Source: a virus
IMG/VR virus record: IMGVR_UViG_3300043403_000054
Coordinates: 1-47,322 of that record
Length of the DNA stretch: 47,322 nt
Reading direction: 5' to 3' (one strand)
Shown here: positions 13,744-47,322 of the stretch, piece after piece
Position numbering within the stretch: the first letter of the stretch is position 1
How the letters are laid out: each line of letters opens with the position of its first letter
Notes under the pieces: generated by a model
What the model was told of the DNA's origin: nothing
Databases searched by the model: none
Seen by the model: the letters and a program-made list of their open reading frames with translations, nothing else
Program-made: the position numbers and the translations under genes

Positions 13744-15173
13744 GCGAGATCCGCGCGTTGCGTCCGCAGATGGACCTTTCGACCGAGACGGCGGCAGAGC
13801 AACAGTTACTCGGTGCGATCCTGAACAACGGGTCAACCTATGACTTGGTGAGCGACATCCTGTCGGCGGAGCACTTCGTCGATCCGGTTCATGCGAGGAT
13901 CTATGAGATTTGCGCCAGCCGGATCAGCAAGGGGCACTTGGCATCTACTGCGGCGATGGCTGGCGTCTTGTCGGATGAGGAAAGCCTGAAGCCTCTTGGT
14001 GGGGTCGGGTATCTGTTCCGCCTGGCCGGTTCGGCGCTGTCGTCCAGCATGGCCCGCGACTACGCGATGGTGATGGTCGAGTATGCCTGCCGTCGCAAGC
14101 TTCGCCAGTTGACCGAGGACGCGGCACAGGGCCTTTCCGTAGGGGTGGATGCCGCCGAGGTGCGCGCGGCCCTCCAGCAAGGCTTATACGCGCTGCCAGA
14201 GGTGGCCGGGGCGGAAAGCAGCGTTTCCATCCTGAAGGCGATGACGCAAGCCGTGGATCAGGCGGCGGAAGCCTATCAGGGCAACACCTCGTTTCTGAAA
14301 ACTGGCGTTCCCGCGCTGGATCAAGTCTTGAAGGGCTTGGCACCGGGTGATGTGATGCTTCTCGGTGGCGCGACCTCGATGGGCAAGACATCGCTGGCGC
14401 TGGAGATTGCGGCCAACGTGTCGCTGCGTGCGGAGAATCCCGGCAAGGTGGCGTTCTGGTCCTTGGAGATGACGCCGGAGCAGTTGGCAACCCGGATGGC
14501 GTCGGCTGCGTCCAGCGTGCCCTATTCGGCGCTGCGTGATGCCGCCACGATGGAGGAAAGCGAGTTCAAGAAGTGGATTTTGGCGAGCAGGACCGTCGGG
14601 AATGCTGGCCTGCGGATCGTGCCGCGCCACATCCGGGACATTGCCGCCGGCCATGCTGCCTTGCGTCGGATCAAGCGGGAGTTCGGCGGCCAGTTGGACT
14701 TGGCAATCATCGACTACGCGCAGCTGATCCGCGGCACCGGCAAGTCCCGGTTCGAGCAGATGACCGAGGTGTCGATCGGGATCAAGACGCTGGCCGGGCT
14801 TCTGGAGTGCCCCGTTGTGGCGCTGGTCCAGTTGAGCCGGGACATTGGGTTCCGCGATGAGAAGCGCCCGCAACTCTCGGACATCAAGGAAACCGGCCAA
14901 TTCGAGAACGACGCGGATCAGGTCGTGTTCTGCCACCGGGAAGGCTACTGGCTCCAGCGCCAAGGGCCCAAGTTGAGCAAGGACGGGACTATCTCGGTCG
15001 AGGCGCTGGCGGATCATGAGGCGGAAATCACCCGCACCAAGAACCTGCTGGAGTTGATCGTGCGGAAGAACCGGCACGGGGCACTGGCGACGGCGCAAGT
15101 CGGGTTCCATGAGGCCACGAACAGGTTCTGGGCTCTCGGGCACCGTGACGTGCAAGACGGGGAGTTTGAATGA
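13740..15173 (+). CDS. dnaB: Replicative DNA helicase DnaB (477 aa)
   Basis: An ATP-driven 5'-3' replicative helicase. The N-terminal domain (to ~residue 150) carries AAEQQLLGAILNN and HFVDPVHARIYE. The RecA-like core has Walker A GGATSMGKTS (about 209-218), FWSLEMTPEQLATRMAS (motif H1a region), Walker B LAIIDYAQLI and ALVQLSRDIGFRDEKRPQLSDIKE, then NDADQVVFCHREGY. Full family length. The ATG overlaps the initiator stop (ATGA), so initiator and helicase are coupled. The phage relies on host primase and polymerase, as none is visible here. Confidence 0.96.
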   Translation: MSEIRALRPQMDLSTETAAEQQLLGAILNNGSTYDLVSDILSAEHFVDPVHARIYEICASRISKGHLASTAAMAGVLSDEESLKPLGGVGYLFRLAGSALSSSMARDYAMVMVEYACRRKLRQLTEDAAQGLSVGVDAAEVRAALQQGLYALPEVAGAESSVSILKAMTQAVDQAAEAYQGNTSFLKTGVPALDQVLKGLAPGDVMLLGGATSMGKTSLALEIAANVSLRAENPGKVAFWSLEMTPEQLATRMASAASSVPYSALRDAATMEESEFKKWILASRTVGNAGLRIVPRHIRDIAAGHAALRRIKREFGGQLDLAIIDYAQLIRGTGKSRFEQMTEVSIGIKTLAGLLECPVVALVQLSRDIGFRDEKRPQLSDIKETGQFENDADQVVFCHREGYWLQRQGPKLSKDGTISVEALADHEAEITRTKNLLELIVRKNRHGALATAQVGFHEATNRFWALGHRDVQDGEFE

Positions 15174-15664
15174 ACCCGGATTTTCTCCGCAAGGCTCAGG
15201 TCGAGGGGTGGAACGTCATCACGGCGGACAAGGAGTTTGTCTGGCTCGGATGTGCGCGCGCTGGCTGTAATTTCCAGTTCAAGGTGCGCGATGGTGCTGC
15301 GATCCCGTCAACGTGCAGGCCGCAGCCGGTGCTGGCTGAAATACCGATTGAAAGCTTTGACGACATGCGCGAGGCGCTAAGGGCGCGGCGCGAACAGTTG
15401 TGCTTGTCGATCAAGGATGTGGAGGATGCGGCCGGCCTTGCGACCGACCACCTTGCCAAGTTCGAGAAGGACCAGAGCCTCAAGATCCCGAACATCATGA
15501 CGGCGATGGATTGGGCTCAAGCCTTGGGCTACACGCTGGTTCTGCGCCAGACCGGAATGCCGCAAGTCACGCTCGGGCTTATCGCCCGGACGCGGCACCT
15601 GCTGTCAAAGCGGATGAGTTCTTTCCGGCACTTTCGGGAGTTCCGGGCAAAACGGAAGGAATGA
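15170..15664 (+). CDS. HTH-containing protein with N-terminal Cys motif (164 aa)
   Basis: The N-terminal part includes FVWLGCARAGCNFQFKVRDG, a CxxxxC element followed by a later Cys. Residues ~65-120 form an XRE-like helix-turn-helix (LRARREQLCLSIKDVEDAAGL then KIPNIMTAMDWAQALGY). The C-terminal tail is strongly basic. It follows dnaB with an ATGA overlap. The last 86 bases overlap the convergent gene at 15579-15932, so the basic tail may be partly a by-product of that overlap. A regulator is likely; the target is unknown. Confidence 0.7.
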   Translation: MNPDFLRKAQVEGWNVITADKEFVWLGCARAGCNFQFKVRDGAAIPSTCRPQPVLAEIPIESFDDMREALRARREQLCLSIKDVEDAAGLATDHLAKFEKDQSLKIPNIMTAMDWAQALGYTLVLRQTGMPQVTLGLIARTRHLLSKRMSSFRHFREFRAKRKE

Positions 15665-15932
15665 TTGCCGCCAGGACAGTTGCGATCCGGTCAAGGCTCT
15701 GGACCACGGCCACCAGTTCCTGCCCGAGTTTCGCCTCACAGAGCGAGTGCAGCGCGTAAAGGGCCATGAGCGGCACCTTCTGATCGTTCCGCCAGTTCTG
15801 GATGGTCTTGGTCGTGATCTCCAAGGCTTCGGCGCATTCGCCTTGTGTGCGAAACAGGGCGCCGGACAAGTCATCGAAAAGTTGCGTCCGGCCCTTGGGG
15901 GTAAGTGTCGCTATATCATTCCTGTTAATCAT
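15579..15932 (-). CDS. Small HTH regulator, convergent (117 aa)
   Basis: The segment LFRTQGECAEALEITTKTIQNWRNDQKVP is a helix-turn-helix, followed by a long amphipathic helix and an unstructured Ser/Ala tail. GGGAGA lies five bases before the ATG, and a promoter-like sequence is present further upstream (15978-16006). Its 3' end overlaps the plus-strand gene by 86 bases tail to tail. It may be a transcription regulator made from its own promoter in the lysogen. Confidence 0.65.
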   Translation of the reverse strand: MINRNDIATLTPKGRTQLFDDLSGALFRTQGECAEALEITTKTIQNWRNDQKVPLMALYALHSLCEAKLGQELVAVVQSLDRIATVLAAIIPSVLPGTPESAGKNSSALTAGAASGR

Positions 15933-15977
15933 GGTTTCTCCCTTGGCCTCGGCCAGTTGCGGTTGCTTGCATCGTGA

Positions 15978-16006
15978 AGTATTGTCGGAGCCGGGCGGCG
16001 CTGTAA
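15978..16006 (-). promoter_or_regulatory. Predicted promoter for the 15579-15932 regulator
   Basis: On the minus strand, TTACAG (16006-16001), a 17-base spacer, and AATACT (15983-15978). Both boxes match the sigma-70 consensus in four of six positions. The start would give a short leader before GGGAGA and the ATG. The hairpin at 15990-16017 overlaps it. Confidence 0.4.
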
Positions 16007-16017
16007 CGCCACCCGGC
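15990..16017 (+). other. Strong inverted repeat upstream of the second HNH gene
   Basis: GCCGGG-c-GGCG pairs with CGCC-a-CCCGGC around a CTGTAA loop, giving ten pairs with one mismatch. No T run follows on either strand, so it is not a clear terminator. It could shape the leader of the HNH gene or act on the divergent promoter. Confidence 0.6.
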
Positions 16018-16051
16018 CCCTAACCAGACAGACCGCAGGAGGGTCAATGTC

Positions 16052-16567
16052 ATGGCTTCAAGAGCCCTACGTCCAATTCGTATCGAAGGCAACGTTGCCT
16101 ATATCCCGCTTACCCAAGGCTATGAGGCCAAGGTTGACGTTGAAGATATTCAAATCGTCGAAGGCTTTAACTGGATGGCTTGCGTGACGCGAGACGCCGA
16201 TGGCCTTGCTCGGTCGGTTTACGCAGCGCGAAAGTGCGGCCGCAAGATGTATATGCACCGAGAGATAATGCAGCCTGCAAGTCATGTTGAGGTTGACCAC
16301 ATCGACGGTGATGGGCTGAACAATCTGCGCGAAAACCTTCGGGTCGCAACGGCGTCTCAGAACGCAAAAAACCGCCGCGCGCTAAGGTTTGGCGTTTCGG
16401 GTTTGAAGGGCGTGGTGTGGCATGTCGGAACGCAAAAGTGGCAGGCTCAGATCGGCGTGAACGGTCGCACGGTTTACCTAGGTCTGTTTGACAGCGCAGA
16501 AAATGCCGCCGCCGCTTATGCAGCGGCCAGCATTCGGATGCATGGAGTATTTGGGCGCACCATCTGA
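16052..16567 (+). CDS. HNH homing endonuclease with AP2 domain (171 aa)
   Basis: The HNH core reads YMHREIMQPASHVEVDHIDG then DGLNNLRENLRVAT, with His and Asn in the expected places. The AP2 module follows as GVVWHVGTQKWQAQIGVNG and LGLFDSAENAAAAYAAA. AGGAGG lies upstream. It stands alone between two converging or diverging units, as a mobile free-standing homing endonuclease often does. It shares layout with the gene at 10117-10680 but is clearly divergent. Confidence 0.9.
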   Translation: MASRALRPIRIEGNVAYIPLTQGYEAKVDVEDIQIVEGFNWMACVTRDADGLARSVYAARKCGRKMYMHREIMQPASHVEVDHIDGDGLNNLRENLRVATASQNAKNRRALRFGVSGLKGVVWHVGTQKWQAQIGVNGRTVYLGLFDSAENAAAAYAAASIRMHGVFGRTI

Positions 16568-16639
16568 CTGGAAGCGGCACGGCATGGCTGTTATAGCGCC
16601 CCGGCGCCATCCTCTAGGCGTGATCATCGGCCGGTGGTC

Positions 16640-16666
16640 GGGCGGCAGTTGTGGTGACTGCCGCCC
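16640..16666. other. Perfect 10-bp hairpin near the 3' end of the accessory operon
   Basis: GGGCGGCAGT and ACTGCCGCCC pair perfectly around a seven-base loop, TGTGGTG on plus and CACCACA on minus. The loop nearly equals the ACACCAC loop of the shorter hairpins upstream in the same operon. No T run follows on either strand. Apart from this hairpin I see no supported gene in 16568-16775. Confidence 0.7.
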
Positions 16667-16775
16667 ACTTCACGGATGGGCCCGTGCGCTTCGTAGGACG
16701 CGCCAGAAATGGCCTTCTCTGGTCCGGATATGTCAGGGTAGCCAAGAGCACAAGTTGCGCTCCCGCGTGGCGGTA

Positions 16776-16823
16776 TGGCGCACGGTGAAGGGGCCTCCGT
16801 AGAAGCCCCTCTGCGATGCGTCA
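16776..16823 (-). ncRNA. Intercistronic stop-codon hairpin A (last in operon)
   Basis: In the minus-strand RNA the element starts at the stop codon of the clamp-motif gene: TGACGCAT pairs with GTGCGCCA at the other end. Inside, AGGGGC pairs with GCCCCT around a ten-base loop. It belongs to a set of five (A-E) that share this layout and begin at stop codons, while their stems differ. Confidence 0.7.
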
Positions 16824-17165
16824 TCCGAACAGGCCAAGTTGCGCGGGCTTGCCGTTGTCGATCGGCTTGCGCTCGCAGCCGGGGATCAAAAGCTGCGGCC
16901 CGGCTGCGGTCAGTTCCTCGCGGTAGGGCGCGGGGTCGACCGTCGCGCAGTTGCGGTAAAACTCGGACTTGTCCACCTCGCGCACAGTCTCCAGCCGGTC
17001 AACGATGGGGCCAGGAGCGCGAGGGTCCAGTTTCATCCGGTCCAGCCATGCCCGATATTCGGCATGGTATCCGCTGACAAGAAGCCAGCGCCCGGCGTCG
17101 GTGTAGACAACCGTTTTCGTTCCGTCATCAACAAGCCGGATCGCCGATTTTACATGCTCGCCCAC
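16821..17165 (-). CDS. Accessory protein g8 with C-terminal clamp-binding motif (114 aa)
   Basis: An unknown small protein ending AQLGLFG. QLGLF fits the bacterial beta-sliding-clamp binding consensus (QLxLF), and such motifs often lie at a protein terminus. The rest includes TKTVVYTDAGRWLLVSGYHA and RAWLDRMKLDP. I choose the GTG at 17165, because the junction GGAGGCTTGACC followed by GTG is the same as at the g3/g4 boundary, where an ATG follows; a TTG six bases upstream is the alternative. It is last of eight genes in the operon. The clamp link suggests a role at replicating or repaired DNA. Confidence 0.65.
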   Translation of the reverse strand: MGEHVKSAIRLVDDGTKTVVYTDAGRWLLVSGYHAEYRAWLDRMKLDPRAPGPIVDRLETVREVDKSEFYRNCATVDPAPYREELTAAGPQLLIPGCERKPIDNGKPAQLGLFG

Positions 17166-17167
17166 GG

Positions 17168-17338
17168 TCAAGCCTCCCGTGTGATAGTGAAGATCAGCCC
17201 GCGGCGGCCCCGGATCGAAAGCCGCCGCGTTGCCAAGTTGCGCGCCTGGTCGAAGTCTGCCGCCACCAGCGCGAAGGATGCGCCGCCAAGGTTGCCCCCA
17301 GCGGTCTTATAGGTCGCGGTGCAGAAAAACCGGATCAT
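17168..17338 (-). CDS. Accessory protein g7 (56 aa)
   Basis: A 56-codon frame starts at an ATG overlapping the g6 stop (ATGA) and ends two bases before the g8 GTG. The product begins MIRFFCTATYKTAGGNLGGA and ends in a basic beta-like stretch (RGRRGLIFTITREA). Function unknown; it looks like a small alpha/beta fold. The tight coupling on both sides makes g6-g7-g8 one translational block without an intervening hairpin. Confidence 0.6.
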   Translation of the reverse strand: MIRFFCTATYKTAGGNLGGASFALVAADFDQARNLATRRLSIRGRRGLIFTITREA

Positions 17339-17598
17339 GCTGGCACCCGGTCGGCCAGTTGCAACTCGGGCATGTCGTGGTCATGCGTTGCAAGCCACCA
17401 ATCGGCGCTTTCCGACAGGACTTCCCAAGCGTCTTGCCAGTTGTCCGGCATCGGTCCGTCATCGTTCCAAGCTGCGGACCGCTCCCAAGCTTCGGCGCAA
17501 AGTTCGTGACAGCGTTTGTCCCGAGCGGCGGCTGTGCTGAATAATTCGCAGTCCGTGCCGCCGTCGCTGTCGATAACAAGGCTGTAAATCGTTGCCAT
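17335..17598 (-). CDS. Acidic accessory protein g6 (87 aa)
   Basis: I count 19 Asp/Glu against 5 Lys/Arg in 87 residues, with many Trp (DNWQDAWEVLSESADWWLAT). Such a charge surplus is known from DNA-mimic proteins such as antirestriction factors, but no family is recognised, so this is only a suggestion. AGAGAGAGGAAACACC precedes the ATG, and an ACACCAC-loop hairpin lies just upstream of that ribosome binding site. Confidence 0.65.
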   Translation of the reverse strand: MATIYSLVIDSDGGTDCELFSTAAARDKRCHELCAEAWERSAAWNDDGPMPDNWQDAWEVLSESADWWLATHDHDMPELQLADRVPA

Positions 17599-17615
17599 GG
17601 TGTTTCCTCTCTCTG

Positions 17616-17632
17616 GCCCGGTGGTGTCGGGC
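17616..17632 (-). promoter_or_regulatory. ACACCAC-loop hairpin upstream of g6
   Basis: GCCCG-ACACCAC-CGGGC in the operon RNA: five perfect pairs and a seven-base loop. It ends three bases before the purine-rich ribosome binding site (AGAGAGAGG) of g6. The loop is identical to those at 18132-18148 and 18690-18706, while the stem differs. Confidence 0.7.
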
Positions 17633-17645
17633 GGTTCTCATGCGG

Positions 17646-17691
17646 TGGCGCATGGTGACAGGCCCCGGATAGGGCCTGCTGCAATGCGTCA
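17646..17691 (-). ncRNA. Intercistronic stop-codon hairpin B
   Basis: It begins at the stop codon of g5. The outer stem is TGACGCAT with ATGCGCCA, the inner stem CAGGCCC with GGGCCTG (seven pairs). The third outer pair (A with C) is mismatched, as in all five elements. Confidence 0.75.
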
Positions 17692-18111
17692 GAAGGTCAG
17701 GCGCGCCCAGCCCTTATCCTTTGAGCCCTTGGTCCAAAGCTTGACCATCGCCCCGCGCGGATCGCCGGACGTTTCAAGGTCGATCCGTTCGCCCCAAGTT
17801 GCGCCATAGATGACCGCCAGAGCGGCCTTAACCTTGGCCTCTGCCCGGTCGTCTGACCGTTCGGCGCTGGCCTCGTCTGCATCGGTCCAGCTTGCCAAGA
17901 CCATGCGGGCTTTCGCGTCATAGCGTTCAATCCCGTTGCAGCGTTTCACTGCGTTACGCTCCAAGGTCCGGCTGGCCCTGATGGTGGCTTCGACCGCATC
18001 CGATACTTGCCACATGGTCGCGCCTTCCGTGATCTGGAAGCCGGGTTCCACGTCGTGCAGCCGGTAAATCGTTTTGACCTGTGCAAGCGTTTCCTCTTTT
18101 ACCGTGGTCAT
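17689..18111 (-). CDS. Accessory protein g5 (140 aa)
   Basis: Unrecognised product beginning MTTVKEETLAQVKTIYRLHD and ending KGSKDKGWARLTF. The middle is helical and charged (DADEASAERSDDRAEAKVKA). The ATG at 18111 follows CAGAGAGAGCACCAC and a hairpin with an ACACCAC loop. The long open frame upstream is a shadow through intercistronic sequence. Its stop codon is the first three bases of hairpin B. From memory, genes of this type occur in Rhodobacterales mobile DNA, but I cannot name a family. Confidence 0.6.
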   Translation of the reverse strand: MTTVKEETLAQVKTIYRLHDVEPGFQITEGATMWQVSDAVEATIRASRTLERNAVKRCNGIERYDAKARMVLASWTDADEASAERSDDRAEAKVKAALAVIYGATWGERIDLETSGDPRGAMVKLWTKGSKDKGWARLTF

Positions 18112-18131
18112 GTGGTGCTCTCTCTGTGGTG

Positions 18132-18148
18132 GGGCGGTGGTGTCGCCC
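18132..18148 (-). promoter_or_regulatory. ACACCAC-loop hairpin upstream of g5
   Basis: GGGCG-ACACCAC-CGCCC in the operon RNA: the same loop as the hairpins before g6 and g3 on a different, fully paired 5-bp stem. It ends just before CACCACAGAGAGAG, the ribosome binding region of g5. Confidence 0.7.
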
Positions 18149-18160
18149 GGTGGCATGGGT

Positions 18161-18206
18161 CGGCCCATGGGATGCCAGCCCCGCAAGGCTGGACACCGAT
18201 GGGTCA
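18161..18206 (-). ncRNA. Intercistronic stop-codon hairpin C
   Basis: It begins at the stop codon of g4. The outer stem is TGACCCAT with ATGGGCCG: relative to B and D, a G became C on one side and a C became G on the other, so pairing is kept. The inner stem is CCAGCC with GGCTGG. Confidence 0.75.
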
Positions 18207-18455
18207 GGCGACGCGGCGCGGGCTGTATGCCTCCAGCGGCTTGCGGTCCTTGGCGGCCTGTTGAACCCGCGCCCGAATGTCGGCGACAGGTTCGGCGGTC
18301 AGGACCGAGCAGGCCCATACCAGCGCCGCGACTGTGTGGCTTGCCCCGGTCTTACCCAAGGCCGTCATGGCGTTGCTGTCGGCCAGCTGTTGCGCCTCAA
18401 TGGCCCGGCTTTCGAGGATCGCGGCCTTGACCGCCAGTTGCGTTGCGTCCTGCAT
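18204..18455 (-). CDS. Accessory protein g4 (83 aa)
   Basis: Helical, Ala-rich product (MQDATQLAVKAAILESRAIE, then VADIRARVQQAAKDRKPLEAY) ending RRVA. It could be a small DNA- or protein-binding helical bundle; no family is recognised. GAGGAGG lies seven bases before the ATG at 18455, which is two bases past the g3 stop, so g3 and g4 are coupled. A TTG at 18461 is a less likely start. Confidence 0.6.
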   Translation of the reverse strand: MQDATQLAVKAAILESRAIEAQQLADSNAMTALGKTGASHTVAALVWACSVLTAEPVADIRARVQQAAKDRKPLEAYSPRRVA

Positions 18456-18457
18456 GG

Positions 18458-18664
18458 TCAAGCCTCCTCGTCCGAGTTTACCCAGACCCCAAGGAAGGCC
18501 GATCCGCAGGCGTTGCCGTTCACGTCGCGCAGGCTGAATTGCCCCTCTGCGCCGTCGTCGATCCGCTGCGCTAAGGCGCGAAGGATGCGGGCGACCTCTT
18601 GGGCCGGGTTGTCAGTGAATGCCGCGTTTCCGCTGGCAAGCGTCAGGTCAAGCCGTGCTGTCAT
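18458..18664 (-). CDS. Accessory protein g3 (68 aa)
   Basis: Product MTARLDLTLASGNAAFTDNP followed by AQEVARILRALAQRIDDGA and a short beta-like part (LRDVNGNACGSAFLG), ending DEEA. The pattern 'FTDNPAQEVARILR...NGN' recurs, from memory, in small proteins of plasmids and prophages, without a known role. The start follows CAGAGGACGAAACACC and an ACACCAC-loop hairpin. It is coupled to g4. Confidence 0.6.
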   Translation of the reverse strand: MTARLDLTLASGNAAFTDNPAQEVARILRALAQRIDDGAEGQFSLRDVNGNACGSAFLGVWVNSDEEA

Positions 18665-18689
18665 GGTGTTTCGTCCTCTGGTGTGTGTC

Positions 18690-18706
18690 CCGCAGTGGTG
18701 TTGCGG
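18690..18706 (-). promoter_or_regulatory. ACACCAC-loop hairpin upstream of g3
   Basis: CCGCA-ACACCAC-TGCGG in the operon RNA: a third stem sequence with the same seven-base loop. It lies about ten bases before the ribosome binding site of g3. Confidence 0.7.
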
Positions 18707-18712
18707 TCATGC

Positions 18713-18762
18713 TGGCGCATGGGATGGGCGCGACCCTATGGCCGCGCCTCACCGATGCGTCA
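18713..18762 (-). ncRNA. Intercistronic stop-codon hairpin D
   Basis: It begins at the stop codon of the RadC-like gene. The outer stem is TGACGCAT with ATGCGCCA; the inner stem is GGCGCG with CGCGCC. The CGGTG and CATCCC flanks are shared with hairpin C. Confidence 0.75.
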
Positions 18763-19260
18763 GAAGTCGCCTGCGGCCCGCATGGAGTAGGTGCTAGGCC
18801 CGCCGGTGACAACGTGGTCATGCAGGGTCGTGCCGAACACGCGCAAGACCGCCTCCATCTCGCGCGTCATGGCCTTATCGGCATCGCTTGGCATCGGATC
18901 GCCCGAGGGGTGATTATGGGCAAGGATGACGGCGCTGGCGTCCAGTTGCAGGGCGCGCTTGGCAATCTCGCGGGGATACACCGGCACATGGTCGATTGTG
19001 CCGCGCGCTTGTTCCTCGTCCCTGATCAGGCGATTCTTGCGGTCAAGATACAGAACGCGGAAGCTTTCCGCCCGCAGGCCGCCCATGGTGCAGGCGAGGT
19101 AATCTTTCAGCGCGTCCCAGCTGCTGATCAGGGGCTTGCTGGCCACAAGTTGCGCTAGGATCGCCCGCGCCGCTTCAATGGTCGCGCGGTCGGCATCGGT
19201 CAGGCTGTCGCGGTAATCCGCGTTCGGCAGGTCGCCGAAAAGGTGCATCTGGTCGAACAT
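18760..19260 (-). CDS. RadC/JAB-domain protein g2 (166 aa)
   Basis: This is a RadC-family (DUF2466) protein with an MPN/JAB metalloprotease-like core: HNHPSGDPMPSDAD carries the conserved HxH...SGDP..SxxD pattern, preceded by FRVLYLDRKNRLI and followed by VLRVFGTTLHDHVV. The molecular function of RadC proteins is unsettled. On plasmids they often travel with antirestriction genes. The N-terminus reads MFDQMHLFG, close to a clamp-binding QxxLF motif. It lacks the helix-hairpin-helix part of full-length RadC. Its ribosome binding site is overlapped by a TGCAA/TTGCA repeat. Confidence 0.88.
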   Translation of the reverse strand: MFDQMHLFGDLPNADYRDSLTDADRATIEAARAILAQLVASKPLISSWDALKDYLACTMGGLRAESFRVLYLDRKNRLIRDEEQARGTIDHVPVYPREIAKRALQLDASAVILAHNHPSGDPMPSDADKAMTREMEAVLRVFGTTLHDHVVTGGPSTYSMRAAGDF

Positions 19261-19279
19261 GGTGCAATTCCCTCTGTTG

Positions 19280-19298
19280 CATGGTGTGGTGGCCCATG
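19280..19298 (-). promoter_or_regulatory. Variant leader hairpin upstream of g2, alternative to hairpin E
   Basis: CATGG pairs with CCATG around the loop GCCACCACA in the operon RNA. The loop carries CACCAC, as in the ACACCAC hairpins. The 5' strand reuses bases of the outer stem of hairpin E, so the two structures exclude each other. Confidence 0.5.
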
Positions 19299-19335
19299 GT
19301 GCAGCCCTTGACGCGCAAGGGCTGGCGATAGGTCA
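19290..19335 (-). ncRNA. Intercistronic stop-codon hairpin E (first in operon)
   Basis: It begins at the stop codon of g1. The outer stem is TGACCTAT with ATGGGCCA (one G-T pair and the usual A-C mismatch). The inner stem is the longest of the set: CAGCCCTTG with CAAGGGCTG, nine pairs around CGCGT. Confidence 0.75.
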
Positions 19336-19500
19336 CGGCAGGCGGTGGCCATCTTGGCCGGTGGCAAGGCGCACGTCGCGCAGCCCTTCCAGCAGCCGCC
19401 GCGCATATGCCTTATCTGCGGGATAGGTCTTGGGCTGGCGCAATGCGGCCCGAGCGGCTGCAAGGTCAATCGCCGTCAAGGCGCGGTGGTATCCCATCAT
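19333..19500 (-). CDS. Accessory protein g1, first gene of the operon (55 aa)
   Basis: A 55-codon frame begins ATG ATG; AGAGGAG lies nine bases before the first ATG. The product, MMGYHRALTAIDLAAARAAL followed by a basic helical region (KAYARRLLEGLRDVRLA), is small, helical and basic, so nucleic-acid binding is possible. It is the leading gene of an operon with repeated RNA hairpins and could be examined as their binding partner; this is speculation. Its TGA starts hairpin E. Confidence 0.6.
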   Translation of the reverse strand: MMGYHRALTAIDLAAARAALRQPKTYPADKAYARRLLEGLRDVRLATGQDGHRLP

Positions 19501-19521
19501 AGTCTAGCACTCCTCTAACAG

Positions 19522-19544
19522 CTGCCGCCCGTGGTGCGCGGCAG
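19522..19544 (-). promoter_or_regulatory. Leader hairpin upstream of g1
   Basis: CTGCCGC pairs with GCGGCAG (seven pairs) around the loop GCACCACGG in the operon RNA. The loop again carries CACCAC. It lies about five bases before the ribosome binding site of g1. Confidence 0.6.
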
Positions 19545-19622
19545 GTGAATAAGGGGTCCATAATGCCGGGTTATCGCTTGAGGCTATCCGGCGGACATTG
19601 ACGGGGATAAAGAGCGTATGCC

Positions 19623-19638
19623 GTTGGGCATATCCAAC
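19623..19638. promoter_or_regulatory. Operator-like dyad at the accessory-operon start site
   Basis: GTTGGGCATATCCAAC on plus: an inverted repeat of GTTGG and CCAAC sharing ATATCCA with OL1. It overlaps the last base of the -10 and the predicted transcription start, so repressor binding there would silence the accessory operon. Confidence 0.5.
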
Positions 19639-19666
19639 AGATAGGCCATGCGTTCCGGCATGTCAA
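19638..19666 (-). promoter_or_regulatory. Predicted promoter of the accessory operon
   Basis: On the minus strand: a perfect TTGACA (19666-19661), a 17-base spacer and TATCTG (19643-19638). It is the best sigma-70-type match I see in the window. Transcription would start near 19631 and give a leader of about 130 bases before g1. Confidence 0.7.
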
Positions 19667-19735
19667 CAGGGAAAGCGAAAATAATTCGTAGGGGCCAGAT
19701 GGTGCCGTGCATGGATCGGCGCTAGGTTCTGCCGG

Positions 19736-20224
19736 ATGGTCCGGCACATGAACGCACAAACCCACATCAAACCCGCCCAGGACGCGCCCAGACTGCCGAA
19801 ACTCCGGGCCGCGCTATCCCGTGCCCTAGACGGCATTGCAATAGAGGGACAAACGCAGAGAGAGGCTGCCCGCAGGGCGGGGATGAACGAAACAGCCCTT
19901 TCCCGCGCACTAGGCAAACCACACATTGCCGCAGAGCTTGAACGCAGGAAAGCAGAAGCCGCATTGTCGCTGGATGTCCTCAAAGGGGTGGCCAAGGCAT
20001 CCGCCTACCGAGTAGGGATCGATCTCATGCACAACAGCCCAGACCACAAGGTAAGGGCGAAAATGGTCGAGTTATTCGCAAGCGAGGCACGCCAACCCAC
20101 TGTTGCCGTTCAGATAAACAACAGCCCGGCACAGGGATACCTATACCGCAAAACAGATCAGGCATCTGGCCAAGATGACGCGCAAGTCATTGAAGGAAAA
20201 GCAGAAACTGCCAAGCCTGCGTGA
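19736..20224 (+). CDS. terS: Terminase small subunit-like DNA-binding protein (162 aa)
   Basis: The segment GQTQREAARRAGMNETALSRALG is a helix-turn-helix of the type found in small terminase subunits, which recognise the packaging site. It is followed by a helical part (ERRKAEAALSLDVLKGVAKA and DHKVRAKMVELFASEA). It opens the packaging and structural block, five genes ahead of terL counting inclusively. The first ATG (19736) lies in the loop of a six-pair hairpin, TGCCGG with CCGGCA; an in-frame ATG at 19748 just after it is the alternative. Neither has a strong Shine-Dalgarno. Confidence 0.7.
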   Translation: MVRHMNAQTHIKPAQDAPRLPKLRAALSRALDGIAIEGQTQREAARRAGMNETALSRALGKPHIAAELERRKAEAALSLDVLKGVAKASAYRVGIDLMHNSPDHKVRAKMVELFASEARQPTVAVQINNSPAQGYLYRKTDQASGQDDAQVIEGKAETAKPA

Positions 20225-20447
20225 CGCGCCAAGTCTAGGACCGCACCAGCGCCCCGGATCGGACCGGATCGGCCCCCCACCCCCCCCCTACCCCCACCCC
20301 CCCCGAGGGGAAAAACGGGCGCGCGCCTAGTCTCTACTCCACCCTCGCCCGCGCCGATCTTTTTTTCTTTTTTCTTCTGTCGGTGCATGGGGGGATTTTT
20401 GGAAATGTTTCACCGCTACGGGGGTCGCATAAACGCCGGGGCTTGAA
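20225..20447. other. Non-coding segment with C-tracts and a T-rich tract
   Basis: After terS come a direct repeat (CCGGATCGGA twice, last base variable, near 20255-20273), then about 30 bases of nearly pure C (20274-20303), then a T-rich stretch (about 20358-20380) preceded by GC-rich sequence that could form a weak terminator. No supported gene. Its place between terS and terL makes it a possible packaging-site region. Confidence 0.5.
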
Positions 20448-20891
20448 ATGGGTGAAAACGGGCTTGTTGGGGTTCGTTCTGGGACGATGGGTCGGTTTTG
20501 GGCTCGGGTTCGGAAGCAAGGTGACTGCTGGGTGTGGCAGGGGGCTCGGGATAATCGCGGGTATGGGGTTGCGGGGATTGGCGGTGTTCAGGGTGCGCAT
20601 CGGGTTTCGTGGGTGTGGAAGCATGGGTATCGGCCTGATGGGGTTTTGAGGAACCGCTGCGGGGATGCGGCGTGCGTAAATCCTTCTCACTGGCGGGTTG
20701 AGGGGAAGCGTCCTTTGTCGGCGATGCAGGTGCGTCATGCGGAGATCCGCCGGCTGTTCTCGGAGGGTGTGGGCATAGGTGAGATCATGGACCGGATTGG
20801 ATGTTCTCGGGCAACGGTATGGAGGCGGACGCATGGCATTGTTCGACAGGAGCCTTTCGCGGCTGAAGAAGAAGCGGGTGGCCAAGGTTGA
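20448..20891 (+). CDS. HNH-like protein with C-terminal HTH, catalytic His apparently lost (147 aa)
   Basis: The N-terminal part follows the phage HNH pattern: CWVWQGARDNRGYG, AHRVSWVWKHG, then RNRCGDAACVNPSHW. Members I recall have RHxCDNxxCVNPxHL; here the first His is Asn. The C-terminal part (MQVRHAEIRRLFSEGVGIGE then IMDRIGCSRATVWRR) is a resolvase-like helix-turn-helix. HNH proteins beside terminases help packaging in several phages, but this one may only bind DNA. Its end overlaps the next gene by 59 bases. An ATG at 20487 is an alternative start. Confidence 0.7.
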   Translation: MGENGLVGVRSGTMGRFWARVRKQGDCWVWQGARDNRGYGVAGIGGVQGAHRVSWVWKHGYRPDGVLRNRCGDAACVNPSHWRVEGKRPLSAMQVRHAEIRRLFSEGVGIGEIMDRIGCSRATVWRRTHGIVRQEPFAAEEEAGGQG

Positions 20892-21582
20892 TGCTCCGAC
20901 AGTTCGGGGTCTGATTGCGGCTTCTGGCGGCGGGCTGACGGCCGAGCAGGTGGATGACCGGGTTGCGGGGCTTCTGGTGGCCGGAACCAATGTCACGCTC
21001 ACCTACAACGACGGCGCCAACACGCTCACGGTCGACGCCTCTGGTGGCGGCACGACGAACCTGGCCTACACGGCATCGACGCGGCTTCTGGAAAGCAGCA
21101 CGGGCGCGGATGTGACGTTGCCGCTGGTTGTTGCCGGTGGTGACGCGGGCCTGATGACAGGGGCGGACAAGACCAAGCTGAATGGCGTTGCTACCGGAGC
21201 GACGGCGAACAGCGCAGACGCGACCCTGCTGGCGCGGGCGAACCATACCGGATCGCAACTGGCCGCGACGATCTCGGACTTTGCCTCTGCGGTAGCGGCG
21301 CTGATCACCGGCAAACAGAACACCATCCTCTCGGGAACCGCGACGGTAACGCCGGACCGTCAGGCAATGGAGTGGCGCGAAACGGTGGCGGCGGTCGGCG
21401 TCACGGGCTCCAGCCGGATCTCGCTTGATCTGGGATCGCACGCAGATACCGATGAAAATGATCCCGAACTCCTCGACATCGGTGCGATCTCCGCAATCCC
21501 CGGCACCAATACCATCACATTCATCCTGGCCTTCCTTACCCCGACCGCAGGGCCAATCAAGCTGAACTGGAGTGCGCTCTAA
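20833..21582 (+). CDS. Tail/fibre-type structural protein (249 aa)
   Basis: The start MALFDRSLSRLKKKR is basic. Residues ~55-75 give NVTLTYNDGANTLTVDASGG, and the middle has GLMTGADKTKLNGVATGATA and LLARANHTGSQLAATISDFA. These are typical repeats of phage tail fibres and collar proteins. The C-terminal ~85 residues form a separate beta-rich domain. Its location between terS and terL is unusual for a fibre gene. GGAGG lies seven bases before the ATG at 20833. It may be a second receptor-binding or decoration protein. The next gene overlaps by one base (TAATG). Confidence 0.7.
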   Translation: MALFDRSLSRLKKKRVAKVDAPTVRGLIAASGGGLTAEQVDDRVAGLLVAGTNVTLTYNDGANTLTVDASGGGTTNLAYTASTRLLESSTGADVTLPLVVAGGDAGLMTGADKTKLNGVATGATANSADATLLARANHTGSQLAATISDFASAVAALITGKQNTILSGTATVTPDRQAMEWRETVAAVGVTGSSRISLDLGSHADTDENDPELLDIGAISAIPGTNTITFILAFLTPTAGPIKLNWSAL

Positions 21583-22352
21583 TGGCTTCCCTCGCCCGCC
21601 TTCTCGGAAACGGCCTTCTCGGCACCCCAGCCCTTCTCCACCCCAGAGAAACGCTGTTCAAGACGTTCAACCTCTCAGCAATCAACACCGAAGATGTCAT
21701 CGACGTGGACGGCTGCGCCTCTGTCGTCCTCGATCTGCGCGGAACCTTCAGCGGAACGATCGAAGTCGCCGGAACCGTCGATGGAACGAACTGGACGCCC
21801 ATCCCGGTTCGCCCGCTCAATCAGGCGTCGAAACTCTATGTGGCGTCCGTGGTTGGCGCTGTGCCGGGTGTCTGGGTCGGTAGCTGTGCCGGCTTCCGCC
21901 GCGTCCGTGCCCGCGCAACCGCATGGACCTCCGGCACCGTCACTATCGCCTTGGCCGCAAACCTCGCCGCCATAGAGCAGGGTCTTGAAGGGCTCGTAAC
22001 CAGTAACCTTGGCGTGGCAACCGGCGTTGCCAGTGCCGCCGTCACCCTGACCCTTGCGTCGCCCGGCGCGGGCCTCAGACATTATCTGACCTATCTCACC
22101 GTTGAGAGACACGCCTCGGCGCTTCTGACTGCCGCGGCTACCCCCGTGATTGTCACCACGACCAACCTGCCCGGATCGCTTGCCTTCTCGATCCCGGTTG
22201 AAGCCGCAGCCCAAGGCACGGTCTATGAAAAGCGCCGCGATTTTCCGAGTGCGCTGGCGTCATCTGCGCAAAACACCGCCACAACCATCGTTTGCCCGGT
22301 CTACACCGGCGTCATCTGGCGCGTGGAAGCAGGGTTCTACGTCGCGCCATGA
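21582..22352 (+). CDS. Putative virion protein, beta-rich (256 aa)
   Basis: The sequence is rich in Thr, Val, Ala and Gly with alternating hydrophobic pattern, as in virion beta-sandwich proteins: DVDGCASVVLDLRGTFSGTI, EVAGTVDGTNWTPIPVRP, and a second half with AAVTLTLASPGAGLRHYLTY. The two halves may be two related domains. Its function is unknown. It pairs with the fibre-like gene upstream (TAATG overlap) and precedes terL with an ATGA overlap. A capsid decoration or fibre-associated role is likely. Confidence 0.65.
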   Translation: MASLARLLGNGLLGTPALLHPRETLFKTFNLSAINTEDVIDVDGCASVVLDLRGTFSGTIEVAGTVDGTNWTPIPVRPLNQASKLYVASVVGAVPGVWVGSCAGFRRVRARATAWTSGTVTIALAANLAAIEQGLEGLVTSNLGVATGVASAAVTLTLASPGAGLRHYLTYLTVERHASALLTAAATPVIVTTTNLPGSLAFSIPVEAAAQGTVYEKRRDFPSALASSAQNTATTIVCPVYTGVIWRVEAGFYVAP

Positions 22353-27293: not shown

Positions 27294-28268
27294 ATGCCCG
27301 TCCACACCCTTGTCGAATACGCCAAGACGGTTACTGACCTGAAGGCGCAAGCGGTGATCGAGCTTTTCCCAGAGGAAAGCGACATCCTCCGCGTCATCCC
27401 GTTCAAGAATGCCCCTGGCGGCCGCTACGGCTACTTCCGTGAAGGCGCCCTGCCGACCAGCATGGCCTTCCGTGGGATCAACGAAGTCCCGACCGACGGC
27501 TACGGTCTGATCAACGACTTCACCGAGATGTGCTTCCCCATGGCGGGGCAGATCAACGTGGACCGCGTGCTTCTCGACCGCTACGGCATGGAGCGCCGGA
27601 CCATGGAGGAACGCCTCCAGATCAAGGCCAAGGCGCACCTGTGGGCGCAGACCTTCATCAACGGTGACAACCAGTCGAGCCCGCGTGCGTGGACCGGCCT
27701 TCGCCAGCGCCTGCGTGCTGTCGGCTCCGGCAACTCCTCGGTGGACGGCTCCAACCAGGAAAGCCGGGTTTTTGCAAACTCGACCGCATCAGGTGGCGCT
27801 CCGCTTTCGCTGACCAACCTTGACCTAGCAATCTCGCTGGTGCAGGGCGCGACCCACATCATCATGCCGCGGCAACTGAAGTTCCGGATGCCCGCTGCTG
27901 TTCGGAACGTTGGCGTCGGCGGCGTCTACACCAATGATGTCGAAGATATGGGTCGCCGGGTCGAACGCTATCAGGGCCTCCAAATCCTGACTGGCTACGA
28001 GGTGTCCCGTCACGGCTATCTGCTGAACTTCGACGAGGTGGCCTTCGGTGGCGGCGCTGCCGTGACCGGCTCGATCTACATCGTCTCGTTCGGCGAAATG
28101 GGCGTGTGCGGCATCGAAACCAAGCCGATGCAGGTCACGGACATGGGCCTGATCAACAACGGCGTCCACTACCGGACGGACGTTCACCACGACAACGGCA
28201 TCTGCATCGAGAGCCCGTACTCCGCATTGCGGTTCTCCTCGATCACCAACGCCGCCATCGTTGCGTAA
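27294..28268 (+). CDS. Major capsid protein (324 aa)
   Basis: Head shell protein directly downstream of the scaffold, with GAAAGGAACTGACAA before the ATG. Features: VIPFKNAPGGRYGYFREGAL, the helix RRTMEERLQIKAKAHLWAQT, FINGDNQSSPRAWTGLRQRL (capsid FxxGDxxxxxxFxGL-like signature) and IYIVSFGEMGVCGIETKPMQ in the C-terminal half. An HK97-type fold is the expected one. No separate capsid protease is visible. The next gene follows after 12 bases. Confidence 0.87.
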   Translation: MPVHTLVEYAKTVTDLKAQAVIELFPEESDILRVIPFKNAPGGRYGYFREGALPTSMAFRGINEVPTDGYGLINDFTEMCFPMAGQINVDRVLLDRYGMERRTMEERLQIKAKAHLWAQTFINGDNQSSPRAWTGLRQRLRAVGSGNSSVDGSNQESRVFANSTASGGAPLSLTNLDLAISLVQGATHIIMPRQLKFRMPAAVRNVGVGGVYTNDVEDMGRRVERYQGLQILTGYEVSRHGYLLNFDEVAFGGGAAVTGSIYIVSFGEMGVCGIETKPMQVTDMGLINNGVHYRTDVHHDNGICIESPYSALRFSSITNAAIVA

Positions 28269-30080: not shown

Positions 30081-32184
30081 GCAAACCATCACGCAACGCA
30101 GCTTTGTGATCGGAGAGCCGCGCGAGGAGTTCCTTGAGGCGGATGACCTTGACCTGCGCCTGGCATCGCTTCGCAAGGCTCGAAACGTCCGCATTAAGGC
30201 GACCCGCACGATTGATCAGAAGCTGGGCTCTTGGTTTCAGAGGCCGCTTTTCTACAACGTTCTGCAATTTGAGGTCCGCCCCACGAATGACGAAACCTAT
30301 GTTTTGGACATTGGGTCAACCGCAATCGAGGTGCGGGACCAGAACGGCATTACGAAGTTTTCCAACTACGTCACAAACTTTGGCGACAAGAACAAGATTT
30401 GGGTCCAAGGGTTTAGCAAAGACATCATCATCGGGTGTGCAAACGGCCTGTTTCGGCTTCGCTACACCAGCGCGTCAAGCTGGTCCCTGAGCGCGTTTTC
30501 CTTTGCTGCCGCGCCGGGTGGCGAACTGGCGCAGCCATATTGGTCCTTTGTCCAAGGGATCACTTTGCAGCCTTCAGCCCTCACCGGAGCAATCACACTT
30601 ACAGCGTCGCAAGCGGTATTCACGACGCAGTATGTCGGGCAGCGGGTCCGATATGCCAACCGGGAAGTCCTGATTACCAGCTTCACCAGTTCGGTGTTGG
30701 TGTCTGGAACGGTGATTTCGCGCCTGCCGCCGACCTATCGACTAAACGTTGCGTCATCGACCGACTTCAATGTCGGGGATGCTGTCATCGGGCAGGACAC
30801 AGACTATCAGGGTATTGTGGCCGCAAAGGCGGTCGGAACGATCGACGTGGTGACGCTTCGCTTTCTGGACGGCCCGGACATCAGCGAAAAGATCGACGGG
30901 CCCTCGTCCACAACGACGGTTACGGGGAAAACTTCAATCACGCCGGCCGCCACGACAATCTGGGATGAACCCCTCATTTCTCCGGCTCGCGGATACCCTA
31001 GGGCTGCGGCGGGCGGCACGGGCCGACTGATCATGTGCGACTTCCCCCAAGCCCCGGACGTGATCTGCGCGTCCTCCGTGCGGGAAATCTTTGACTTCCT
31101 TGCCGGGGATGAGGATGACGACGCCATTGTGCGGGCCGCTGGCGACAACAGCCCGCGCTTCCTGCATGTAGTGAATGCCGGGGATCTCCTGCTTCTGGCC
31201 GACCGGGGCATCTACATGGTCGAACTGCGGAACAACACGCCGCTGTCCCCATCATCCTTCGTGCCGCGCCTGGTGGATCGGCGCGGATCATCCACGGTGA
31301 AGCCAGCATTGATTGACGACGGCGTGATATTCCTTGAGGCGTCCGGTCAAGCTATTGCAGTCGCTCAACTGGACGGCAACATCTACCTGAAGTGGTCGGT
31401 GCGAACTATCTCTACGTTCCACGCGCACCTGATCAAATCACCTGTGTCCCTCTGCGGCCCGCCGGAGAACGCGGTCCTGCCGGAGAAATACCTGTTTGTC
31501 GTGAATGGCGACGGAACCATGGCGGTCATGTCTTGGGTTGACGGGTTTGACGCTGAAAACGTGGGCTTTGTCCTTTGGGAGACGCAGGGCCAGTTCAAGG
31601 ACGTTTCCCCTGCTTTTGGAAAGTATCAGGTCATTGTAGATCGAGTGTTTGCGACAGGGGCGGCCCCTGTCGTCGAGGTGTTGGACCAAGATGTCTATCT
31701 GGACTGCGCCGTGCCTCTCAGCGCCAGCATAAACAGCACCTTTTATGGGCAAGAACTGTCAGTTTGCGGCGTGGGCTGGTATGCCGGATTGGGAACGGTC
31801 GACAATGTGGGCAACTTTGTTCTTCCGGGGCCAGCCCAAACCTTACCGGCCGACGCCAGGGTTGGCTTTTCCTACACCTGCACGGTGGGCCTTTGGCCGC
31901 AAGAGCAGGTAAACCATCCCAAGGCGGGCATCTTGGCGGCGCGCGTGATCCGCATGGGCGCCTCTATGTTGAGCACCGGGCCGTTTGCTATCCGCTGCAA
32001 CAATATCACGCGCCGGTTCGGCGGCTATACTGTCGGGGCCGATCTCTCTGATGTGGCCGCCCCTGAAACGCGGCTTTACCGCTGTTCGGTCATAGGGCGG
32101 CGGGATCATCCCGAGATTGAGATCATCAAGGAAAAACCGGGTCTGTTTCAAATTCTCGCGGCCACCCAGGAGGTGACGTTCTAA
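30073..32184 (+). CDS. Tail tubular protein B-like nozzle, T7 gp12-like (703 aa)
   Basis: This large beta-rich protein is expected to form the tail nozzle. N-terminal QRSFVIGEPREEFLEADDLD and LRKARNVRIKATRTIDQKLG, repeated IEVRD and GLFRLRY elements, then LLLADRGIYMVELRN and HAHLIKSPVSLCG fit podoviral nozzle proteins that start 'xxxSFxxGExSPxLxxRxDL'. It starts with GTG inside the end of the adaptor gene. The length is near that of T7 gp12. Confidence 0.83.
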   Translation: MPKQTITQRSFVIGEPREEFLEADDLDLRLASLRKARNVRIKATRTIDQKLGSWFQRPLFYNVLQFEVRPTNDETYVLDIGSTAIEVRDQNGITKFSNYVTNFGDKNKIWVQGFSKDIIIGCANGLFRLRYTSASSWSLSAFSFAAAPGGELAQPYWSFVQGITLQPSALTGAITLTASQAVFTTQYVGQRVRYANREVLITSFTSSVLVSGTVISRLPPTYRLNVASSTDFNVGDAVIGQDTDYQGIVAAKAVGTIDVVTLRFLDGPDISEKIDGPSSTTTVTGKTSITPAATTIWDEPLISPARGYPRAAAGGTGRLIMCDFPQAPDVICASSVREIFDFLAGDEDDDAIVRAAGDNSPRFLHVVNAGDLLLLADRGIYMVELRNNTPLSPSSFVPRLVDRRGSSTVKPALIDDGVIFLEASGQAIAVAQLDGNIYLKWSVRTISTFHAHLIKSPVSLCGPPENAVLPEKYLFVVNGDGTMAVMSWVDGFDAENVGFVLWETQGQFKDVSPAFGKYQVIVDRVFATGAAPVVEVLDQDVYLDCAVPLSASINSTFYGQELSVCGVGWYAGLGTVDNVGNFVLPGPAQTLPADARVGFSYTCTVGLWPQEQVNHPKAGILAARVIRMGASMLSTGPFAIRCNNITRRFGGYTVGADLSDVAAPETRLYRCSVIGRRDHPEIEIIKEKPGLFQILAATQEVTF

Positions 32185-47198: not shown

Positions 47199-47322
47199 TG
47201 GGGCACCTCGGGGGTAAGGGCGCGGATGGCATGTTCAATACTGCCAGAGGCACAACCAAAGCCCTGCTCTGCTTCATCATCGGGGTTAGCATCGGAGCGG
47301 GCAATTGACTTATCGTGGAACC
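47195..47322 (-). CDS. Hypothetical protein, 3' part of the gene split by the window ends
   Basis: This is the continuation of the frame that begins at 262 and runs off position 1. Bases 47254-47322 repeat 1-69; the unique part encodes the last 19 or so residues (ASGSIEHAIRALTPEVPQ) and the TGA at 47197-47195, which overlaps the start of the next gene. See the entry at 1-262 for the whole product. Confidence 0.75.
   Translation of the reverse strand, partial: FHDKSIARSDANPDDEAEQGFGCASGSIEHAIRALTPEVPQ
47254..47322. repeat. Terminal direct repeat, right copy
   Basis: Identical to 1-69. Removing one copy gives a 47253-bp circle with an intact gene over the join. Confidence 0.97.

Follow-up and report, generated by a model that had tools for sequence, protein, structure and literature searches.

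The five hairpins described here belong to a conserved RNA family whose members begin with the stop codon of the gene before them and keep their secondary structure while the letters of that structure change. The stop codon forms part of the helix foot, where one mismatch is nearly invariant. Viral contigs, Rhodobacterales genomes and RcapNL, a cultured phage of R. capsulatus SB1003, together yielded more than 120 distinct homologues. Judging from the sequences and their predicted folds, we tentatively propose, with a little less than even confidence, that the element may act after the stop codon as a portable insulator of the mRNA or a barrier to its decay, i.e. a cistron-end cap resembling the puf hairpin.

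Five hairpins in a minus-strand phage operon

The window, i.e. the whole stretch of DNA analysed, comprises 47,322 bases and carries an exact 69-base direct repeat at its two ends (1-69 is identical to 47254-47322). These repeats make it probable that the phage genome is complete. Encoded on it are a large terminase, a major head protein, a DnaB-like helicase and a RecT-like protein. All five elements reside in one operon on the minus strand, running from 19500 to 16821, for which blastn against cultured phages gave no match. The genes preceding the elements, all on the minus strand, are a 55-aa gene (19333..19500, upstream of E), a radC-like JAB gene (18760..19260, PF04002, E 6e-40, upstream of D), an 83-aa gene (18204..18455, upstream of C), a 140-aa gene (17689..18111, upstream of B) and the last gene of the operon, which codes for 116 aa from a TTG start (16821..17171, upstream of A). 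The 140-aa protein as query yielded two weak loci only, which we left out of the analysis. Elements A-E fill the non-overlapping gene junctions of the operon, and overlapping junctions carry no element. Element A follows the last operon gene and faces a convergent gene on the plus strand (16052-16567), whose product has HNH_3 and AP2 domains and is likely a homing endonuclease; no confident same-strand gene comes next.

Three further features of the genome were recorded. The gap between the convergent genes holds, beyond A, a strong 10-bp hairpin without a T-tract (16640-16668, GGGCGGCAGT...ACTGCCGCCC). Dense GCC-rich tandem repeats occupy 1393-1578 on the plus strand, within a minus-strand ORF (1280-1939) that possibly encodes a glycine-rich repeat protein, and an unusually long C-rich tract lies in intergenic DNA at 20272-20305.

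The initial annotation had located the five elements correctly, to be read on the minus strand, and each indeed begins with the TGA of the preceding gene: every one of these TGAs is the stop of an open frame, and all belong to the one operon. Our covariance model scored element A (16776..16823; outer arms TGACGCAT / GTGCGCCA) at 53.7 bits, B (17646..17691; outer arms TGACGCAT / ATGCGCCA, inner stem CAGGCCC / GGGCCTG) at 50.0 bits, C (18161..18206; class I core, outer arms TGACCCAT / ATGGGCCG) at 51.9 bits, D (18713..18762; class I core CGGTG...CATCCC, outer arms TGACGCAT / ATGCGCCA) at 57.0 bits and E (19290..19335; outer arms TGACCTAT / ATGGGCCA, inner stem CAGCCCTTG / CAAGGGCTG) at 34.5 bits. 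In a scan of the window with this model, A-E were the sole clear matches. The folding z-scores of the five elements are -4.2, -3.4, -2.1, -3.8 and -1.9. All arms read as they had been listed, but the 8-nt outer arms do not pair perfectly, as the third base of the TGA faces a C in all five. Their outer stem consists of a U-A pair (U.G in C), a G-C pair, this A.C mismatch and five further pairs.

Taken by itself, the window offers only moderate evidence for a selected structure. Of the compensating changes that had been claimed, only one in the outer stems is a true double change, with the G-C pair turned into C-G in C and E; two others alter one side only and give G.U pairs. When the window was searched for any stop codon combined with a clamp of 5 bp and an inner stem of 6 or more, 9 places fitted versus 4-6 in dinucleotide shuffles, and thus the layout by itself is not rare. 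What sets A-E apart is that they have homologues and that each of the five coincides with a genuine stop in a single operon.

Covariation and dispersal among homologues

Homologues were first sought by a loose pattern scan of viral contigs, in which most rows were chance matches without an inner hairpin, and by a stricter scan of genomes. Both pattern scans, of contigs and of genomes, turned up copies built like A-E in their inner and outer parts. The collection grew to 131 distinct matches in 88 loci; 127 were analysed, with few doubtful ones (e.g. L232, L244, L249). In an alignment of 104 distinct sequences, 93.9% of the pair cells are standard (68.0% when shuffled) and the covariation score is 0.605 (0.177 when shuffled; 0/500), and slid control alignments reached at most 48.0% standard pairs and a score of at most 0.148. 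This alignment was fitted to the model and hence leans towards structure. A free-position scan for class I carries no such bias, as neither the positions of the outer stem nor those of the inner loop were constrained. Among its 52 distinct matches, all four free outer pairs are standard in 36 (permuted mean 18.6, maximum 27 in 2000 permutations), and 51 have a strong inner hairpin. The homologues thus make the structure claim strong and take the paired changes far beyond chance. The initial annotation had tied its proposal of a selected RNA structure, held in position at stop codons, to covariation in homologues; this covariation was found, and the proposal stands.

The consensus of the commonest class reads TGA CGCAT CGGTG x (inner stem-loop) CATCCC ATGCG CCA. 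Within the helix foot, the last base is paired with U1 in 121 of 127 elements, and G2 pairs with a C in all 127, while A3 of the stop lies opposite a non-pairing base, nearly always C, in 124. The clamp occurs as CGCAT/ATGCG, CCCAT/ATGGG, CCCAC/GTGGG, CGTAT/ATACG, CCTAC/GTAGG, CGCAC/GTGCG and others. The inner stem is variable and GC-rich and begins ~9-11 nt past the TGA, approximately at the edge expected for the footprint of a terminating ribosome. A T-rich tail is present in a single element and absent from the other 126. When the scan did not require a TGA, it was nevertheless in place in 34 of 39 matches; the three genuine exceptions show a stop (TAG or TGA) displaced upstream by 1-2 bases and a re-paired foot, e.g. 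AGGC/GCCT.

Two coding explanations were rejected. The right arm is not conserved as a start codon, as it also reads ATA, GAA, AAA and others. A SECIS, readthrough or selenocysteine function finds no support, as there is no clear frame preference, with frames 0, 1 and 2 open for at least 40 codons in 44, 37 and 31% of cases, and in the window the in-phase frame after the UGA closes after 16 (B), 31 (C) and 7 (D) codons.

All nine structured genome matches come from records whose titles place them in Rhodobacterales. Model scans scored the best 15-20 candidates per genome, and their counts are therefore lower bounds: at least 11 of 296 genomes of one family have the element, at one locus each (the weakest, e.g. 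L181 and L182, are doubtful), and 385 genomes of the class gave, among these best candidates, the already known one only. The elements are rare in Rhodobacterales genomes, with about one locus per genome, and occur nearly exclusively in phage and prophage-like loci. In multi-copy host genomes most copies cluster in one stretch, which fits a prophage. Wherever a locus has several copies, they share one strand (24 of 24 loci, none with both strands). Of eight cultured Rhodobacterales phages whose whole genomes were searched, one, RcapNL, carries a clear copy, located behind gp42 at 27998-28044 of NC_020489 (z -5.7). The same phage (L279) contains two more strong post-stop hairpins of other sequence, at 30151 and 21937 (-). 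Genes upstream of copies include ArdA, ArdC-type, DUF932, DUF3560, DUF4942, RadC, methyltransferase and beta clamp genes. In 74 of 105 close pairs, near-identical copies lie between unrelated flanks. The element has thus been dispersed between unrelated genes, either by spreading alone or by being homogenised through recombination.

Several matches were set apart. A blastn search with one class I element gave no convincing phage or plasmid copy, and a match on a Haematobacter plasmid lies inside an integrase gene and is due to chance. Exact-pattern matches in Sphingobium (L136, L145, L165) have another fold and were excluded from the counts; they have another conserved hairpin in common, with the element's outer arms, that seems to lie immediately upstream of an accA-like gene. 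At L201:6580-6615 (+) and L213:6306-6341 (-), a class I core occurs without TGA or full outer clamp and not obviously after a stop; these cores are possibly decayed or recombined copies.

Possible functions at the end of the cistron

As an insulator, the element would form one long hairpin whenever no ribosome occupies the stop codon, with the stop codon in its foot, then the 5-bp clamp and the variable GC-rich inner stem. Such a hairpin would insulate the upstream coding region and block 3'-to-5' decay entering from the linker, and it may block the passage of ribosomes or RNases from the linker as well. Each gene would become its own mRNA stability unit, as with the Rhodobacter puf hairpin, and access to the hairpin would be controlled by the terminating ribosome. 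We favour a 3' insulator because of the missing U-tract, the use after a last gene, the consecutive use within an operon, the hairpins at plasmid gene ends and the lower stability at host gene ends. The position of A after the last gene and L186, in which an intrinsic-terminator-like hairpin comes after the element, fit a 3'-end role and not a role for the next gene only. Homologues of the DUF932 gene on Rhodobacterales plasmids lack the element, but in 6 of 6 cases their stop is directly followed by a plain GC hairpin, as if a 3' hairpin itself mattered; these loci (L254-L259) include pDE of C. sphaeroides 2.4.1. On a host chromosome, post-stop stability averages about -12 kcal/mol versus -23 kcal/mol for the elements, and such stability is not general at ordinary host gene ends. 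A plain barrier would, however, work without the conserved letters TGACGCATCGGTG...CATCCCATGCGCCA and without placing the stop codon in the helix; both features suggest some additional function or a specific binding partner, and the A.C mismatch in the foot also counts against a plain barrier. The conserved letters could instead stem from recent dispersal.

These surplus features, together with an alternative pairing, make a switch a viable rival. About half of the copies carry a second repeat, a2 (e.g. CGCATGA), just downstream, which can pair with the right arm. The two pairings of the right arm, P1 with the upstream and P2 with the downstream partner, are mutually exclusive. In the window, a2 lies on the minus strand at 17640..17644 for B (CGCAT, partner of the right arm ATGCG at 17649-17653), 18155..18159 for C (CCCAT, partner of ATGGG at 18164-18168), 18709..18712 for D (GCAT, partner of ATGC) and 19281..19284 for E (CCAT, partner of ATGG). 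The a2 pairing is part of the predicted minimum-energy fold of B with its downstream flank, and for D the energies are -38.3 versus -37.8 kcal/mol with the first 9 nt occluded. In C, a2 and the other two arms all depart jointly from the usual sequence (CCCAT, ATGGG, CCCAT), and L135 and L149 show a corresponding three-arm change (CGCAC, GTGCG, CGCAC). A ribosome on the stop codon should favour P2 over P1. A termination-gated two-state switch would thereby set coupling to, or initiation of, the next gene: the ribosome on the stop would cover the left arm and allow P2, and its departure would allow P1. We regard this as possible though rather unlikely. It agrees with the pairing of the first two stop-codon positions described above and with the closeness of the P1 and P2 energies in the window. 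Moreover, when folding was computed with the first 9 nt occluded, 111 of the 127 copies paired their right arm with downstream sequence, versus a mean of 71.5 and a maximum of 85 once that sequence was shuffled. An altered right arm is tracked by a2 with at least four Watson-Crick pairs in 15 of 53 cases (permuted mean 6.1, maximum 14), a permutation test inflated by related sequences. However, an a2 of at least 4 bp is present in only 60 of 127 copies, A has neither a2 nor a clear next gene, and the Shine-Dalgarno sites lie downstream of the element, outside both hairpins. The fuller version, an RNA switch that would read translation termination by flipping the partner of its right arm, couple or insulate neighbouring phage genes and spread as a unit, is in our view doubtful. 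As a separate matter, the TGA within a2 was rejected as a backup stop, since it shows no frame preference (24/21/19).

From the sequences, we infer 3' protection, gating by the terminating ribosome and P2 pairing in vivo. The suggestion of the initial annotation that a terminating ribosome melts the outer stem fits the geometry, the stop in the helix and the downstream alternative pairing; the sensing of translation, the protection of mRNA and processing, which it had named as roles, are all candidate functions.

Intercistronic sites of phage T7 are RNase III substrates, and the element might likewise be cleaved as a double strand by this enzyme, or by an RNase of phage or host origin, so that the cistrons are separated. 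Its long stem with fixed internal mismatches, present once per junction, would suit such a processing site, and stem-loops serve as cleavage signals in the cip-cel operon (PMC10311766). Yet the left arm would be occluded during termination and a cut in the stem would separate the clamp from the stop codon, and we consider processing unlikely. We see very little probability in a DNA-level element, i.e. an attC-like recombination site or transposable hairpin that moves cassettes and whose stop position marks a cassette boundary. The near-identical copies in unrelated flanks and the cassette-like small genes are what it would predict, but the strict strand, the TGA placement, the U.G pairs and the stop in the helix favour RNA, and the conserved arms are TGACGCAT / ATGCGCCA in place of the attC core boxes GTTRRRY / RYYYAAC of integrons. 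A transcription terminator or attenuator is most improbable of all: the GC-rich hairpin does sit in intergenic gaps, but the T-rich tail is missing, A-E are not among the predicted terminators of a terminator scan and in most copies an SD-and-ORF rule places the start of the next gene 12-61 nt further on, with a median of 31; the element is not an intrinsic terminator.

Relation to known intercistronic elements

The initial annotation knew of no family with this layout, and no Rfam 15 covariance model matched the elements at E<=1 (window 15500-20500; L135 2200-5200). We found no paper describing the element in the open-access literature searched, and the words hairpin, stem-loop, terminator and intergenic are absent from the accessible part of a paper on R. 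capsulatus phages including RcapNL. As far as checked, the RNA family and its stop-codon design are new, and the intercistronic hairpin as a kind is already known. The phage group concerned, in which post-transcriptional processes have been little studied, thereby gains a well-supported RNA family. With its stop codon built into the helix, the family offers a clean test of whether translation termination can set mRNA fate, and its position after anti-restriction and early DNA genes is relevant to the dosing of these genes by phages.

T4-type promoter-stem-loop cassettes reportedly carry an early promoter; here, a scan confined to sigma70-like sites found none on the minus (coding) strand of 14000-22000. 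Like the element, these cassettes are short regulatory units that are mobile and place a stem-loop between genes of a phage (Arbiol 2010, as cited in PMC4177764). The SAS/ESAS sequences of cluster K mycobacteriophages are likewise intergenic repeats by many non-structural phage genes, mostly in one orientation, and ESAS has inverted repeats (PMC3203893). They differ in lying at starts and containing AGGAG, and their authors find little support for an RNA hairpin (PMC3203893); our elements begin at stops, and not with the 13-bp GGGATAGGAGCCC at start codons. The cutF-cutO stem-loop of R. capsulatus is a hairpin between a stop and the next gene, too, and responds to a ribosome positioned close to the end of the preceding gene, but it hides the next Shine-Dalgarno site (PMC9973294), which in our elements is not paired in the hairpin. 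Programmed-decay hairpins of E. coli operons are protective, lack a U-tract and stand just after genes, several consecutively per operon, as the elements do. Unlike these, they are not presented as one homologous family and are not from phages, and a stop in the helix is not described for them (PMC5927463).

The puf hairpin of R. capsulatus, an mRNA decay terminator from the same host group, shares with the element a stable, GC-rich, intercistronic hairpin without a U-tract. It has reportedly been proposed to stabilise the upstream segment. In contrast to the element, it occupies one chromosomal site and is not known to have a stop-codon clamp or to belong to a dispersed sequence family. This precedent goes back to Klug 1987 and Chen 1988, as cited in PMC6238624 and PMC5927463. 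With the RcapNL copy, the element becomes testable in R. capsulatus SB1003, where the puf intercistronic decay barrier was studied.
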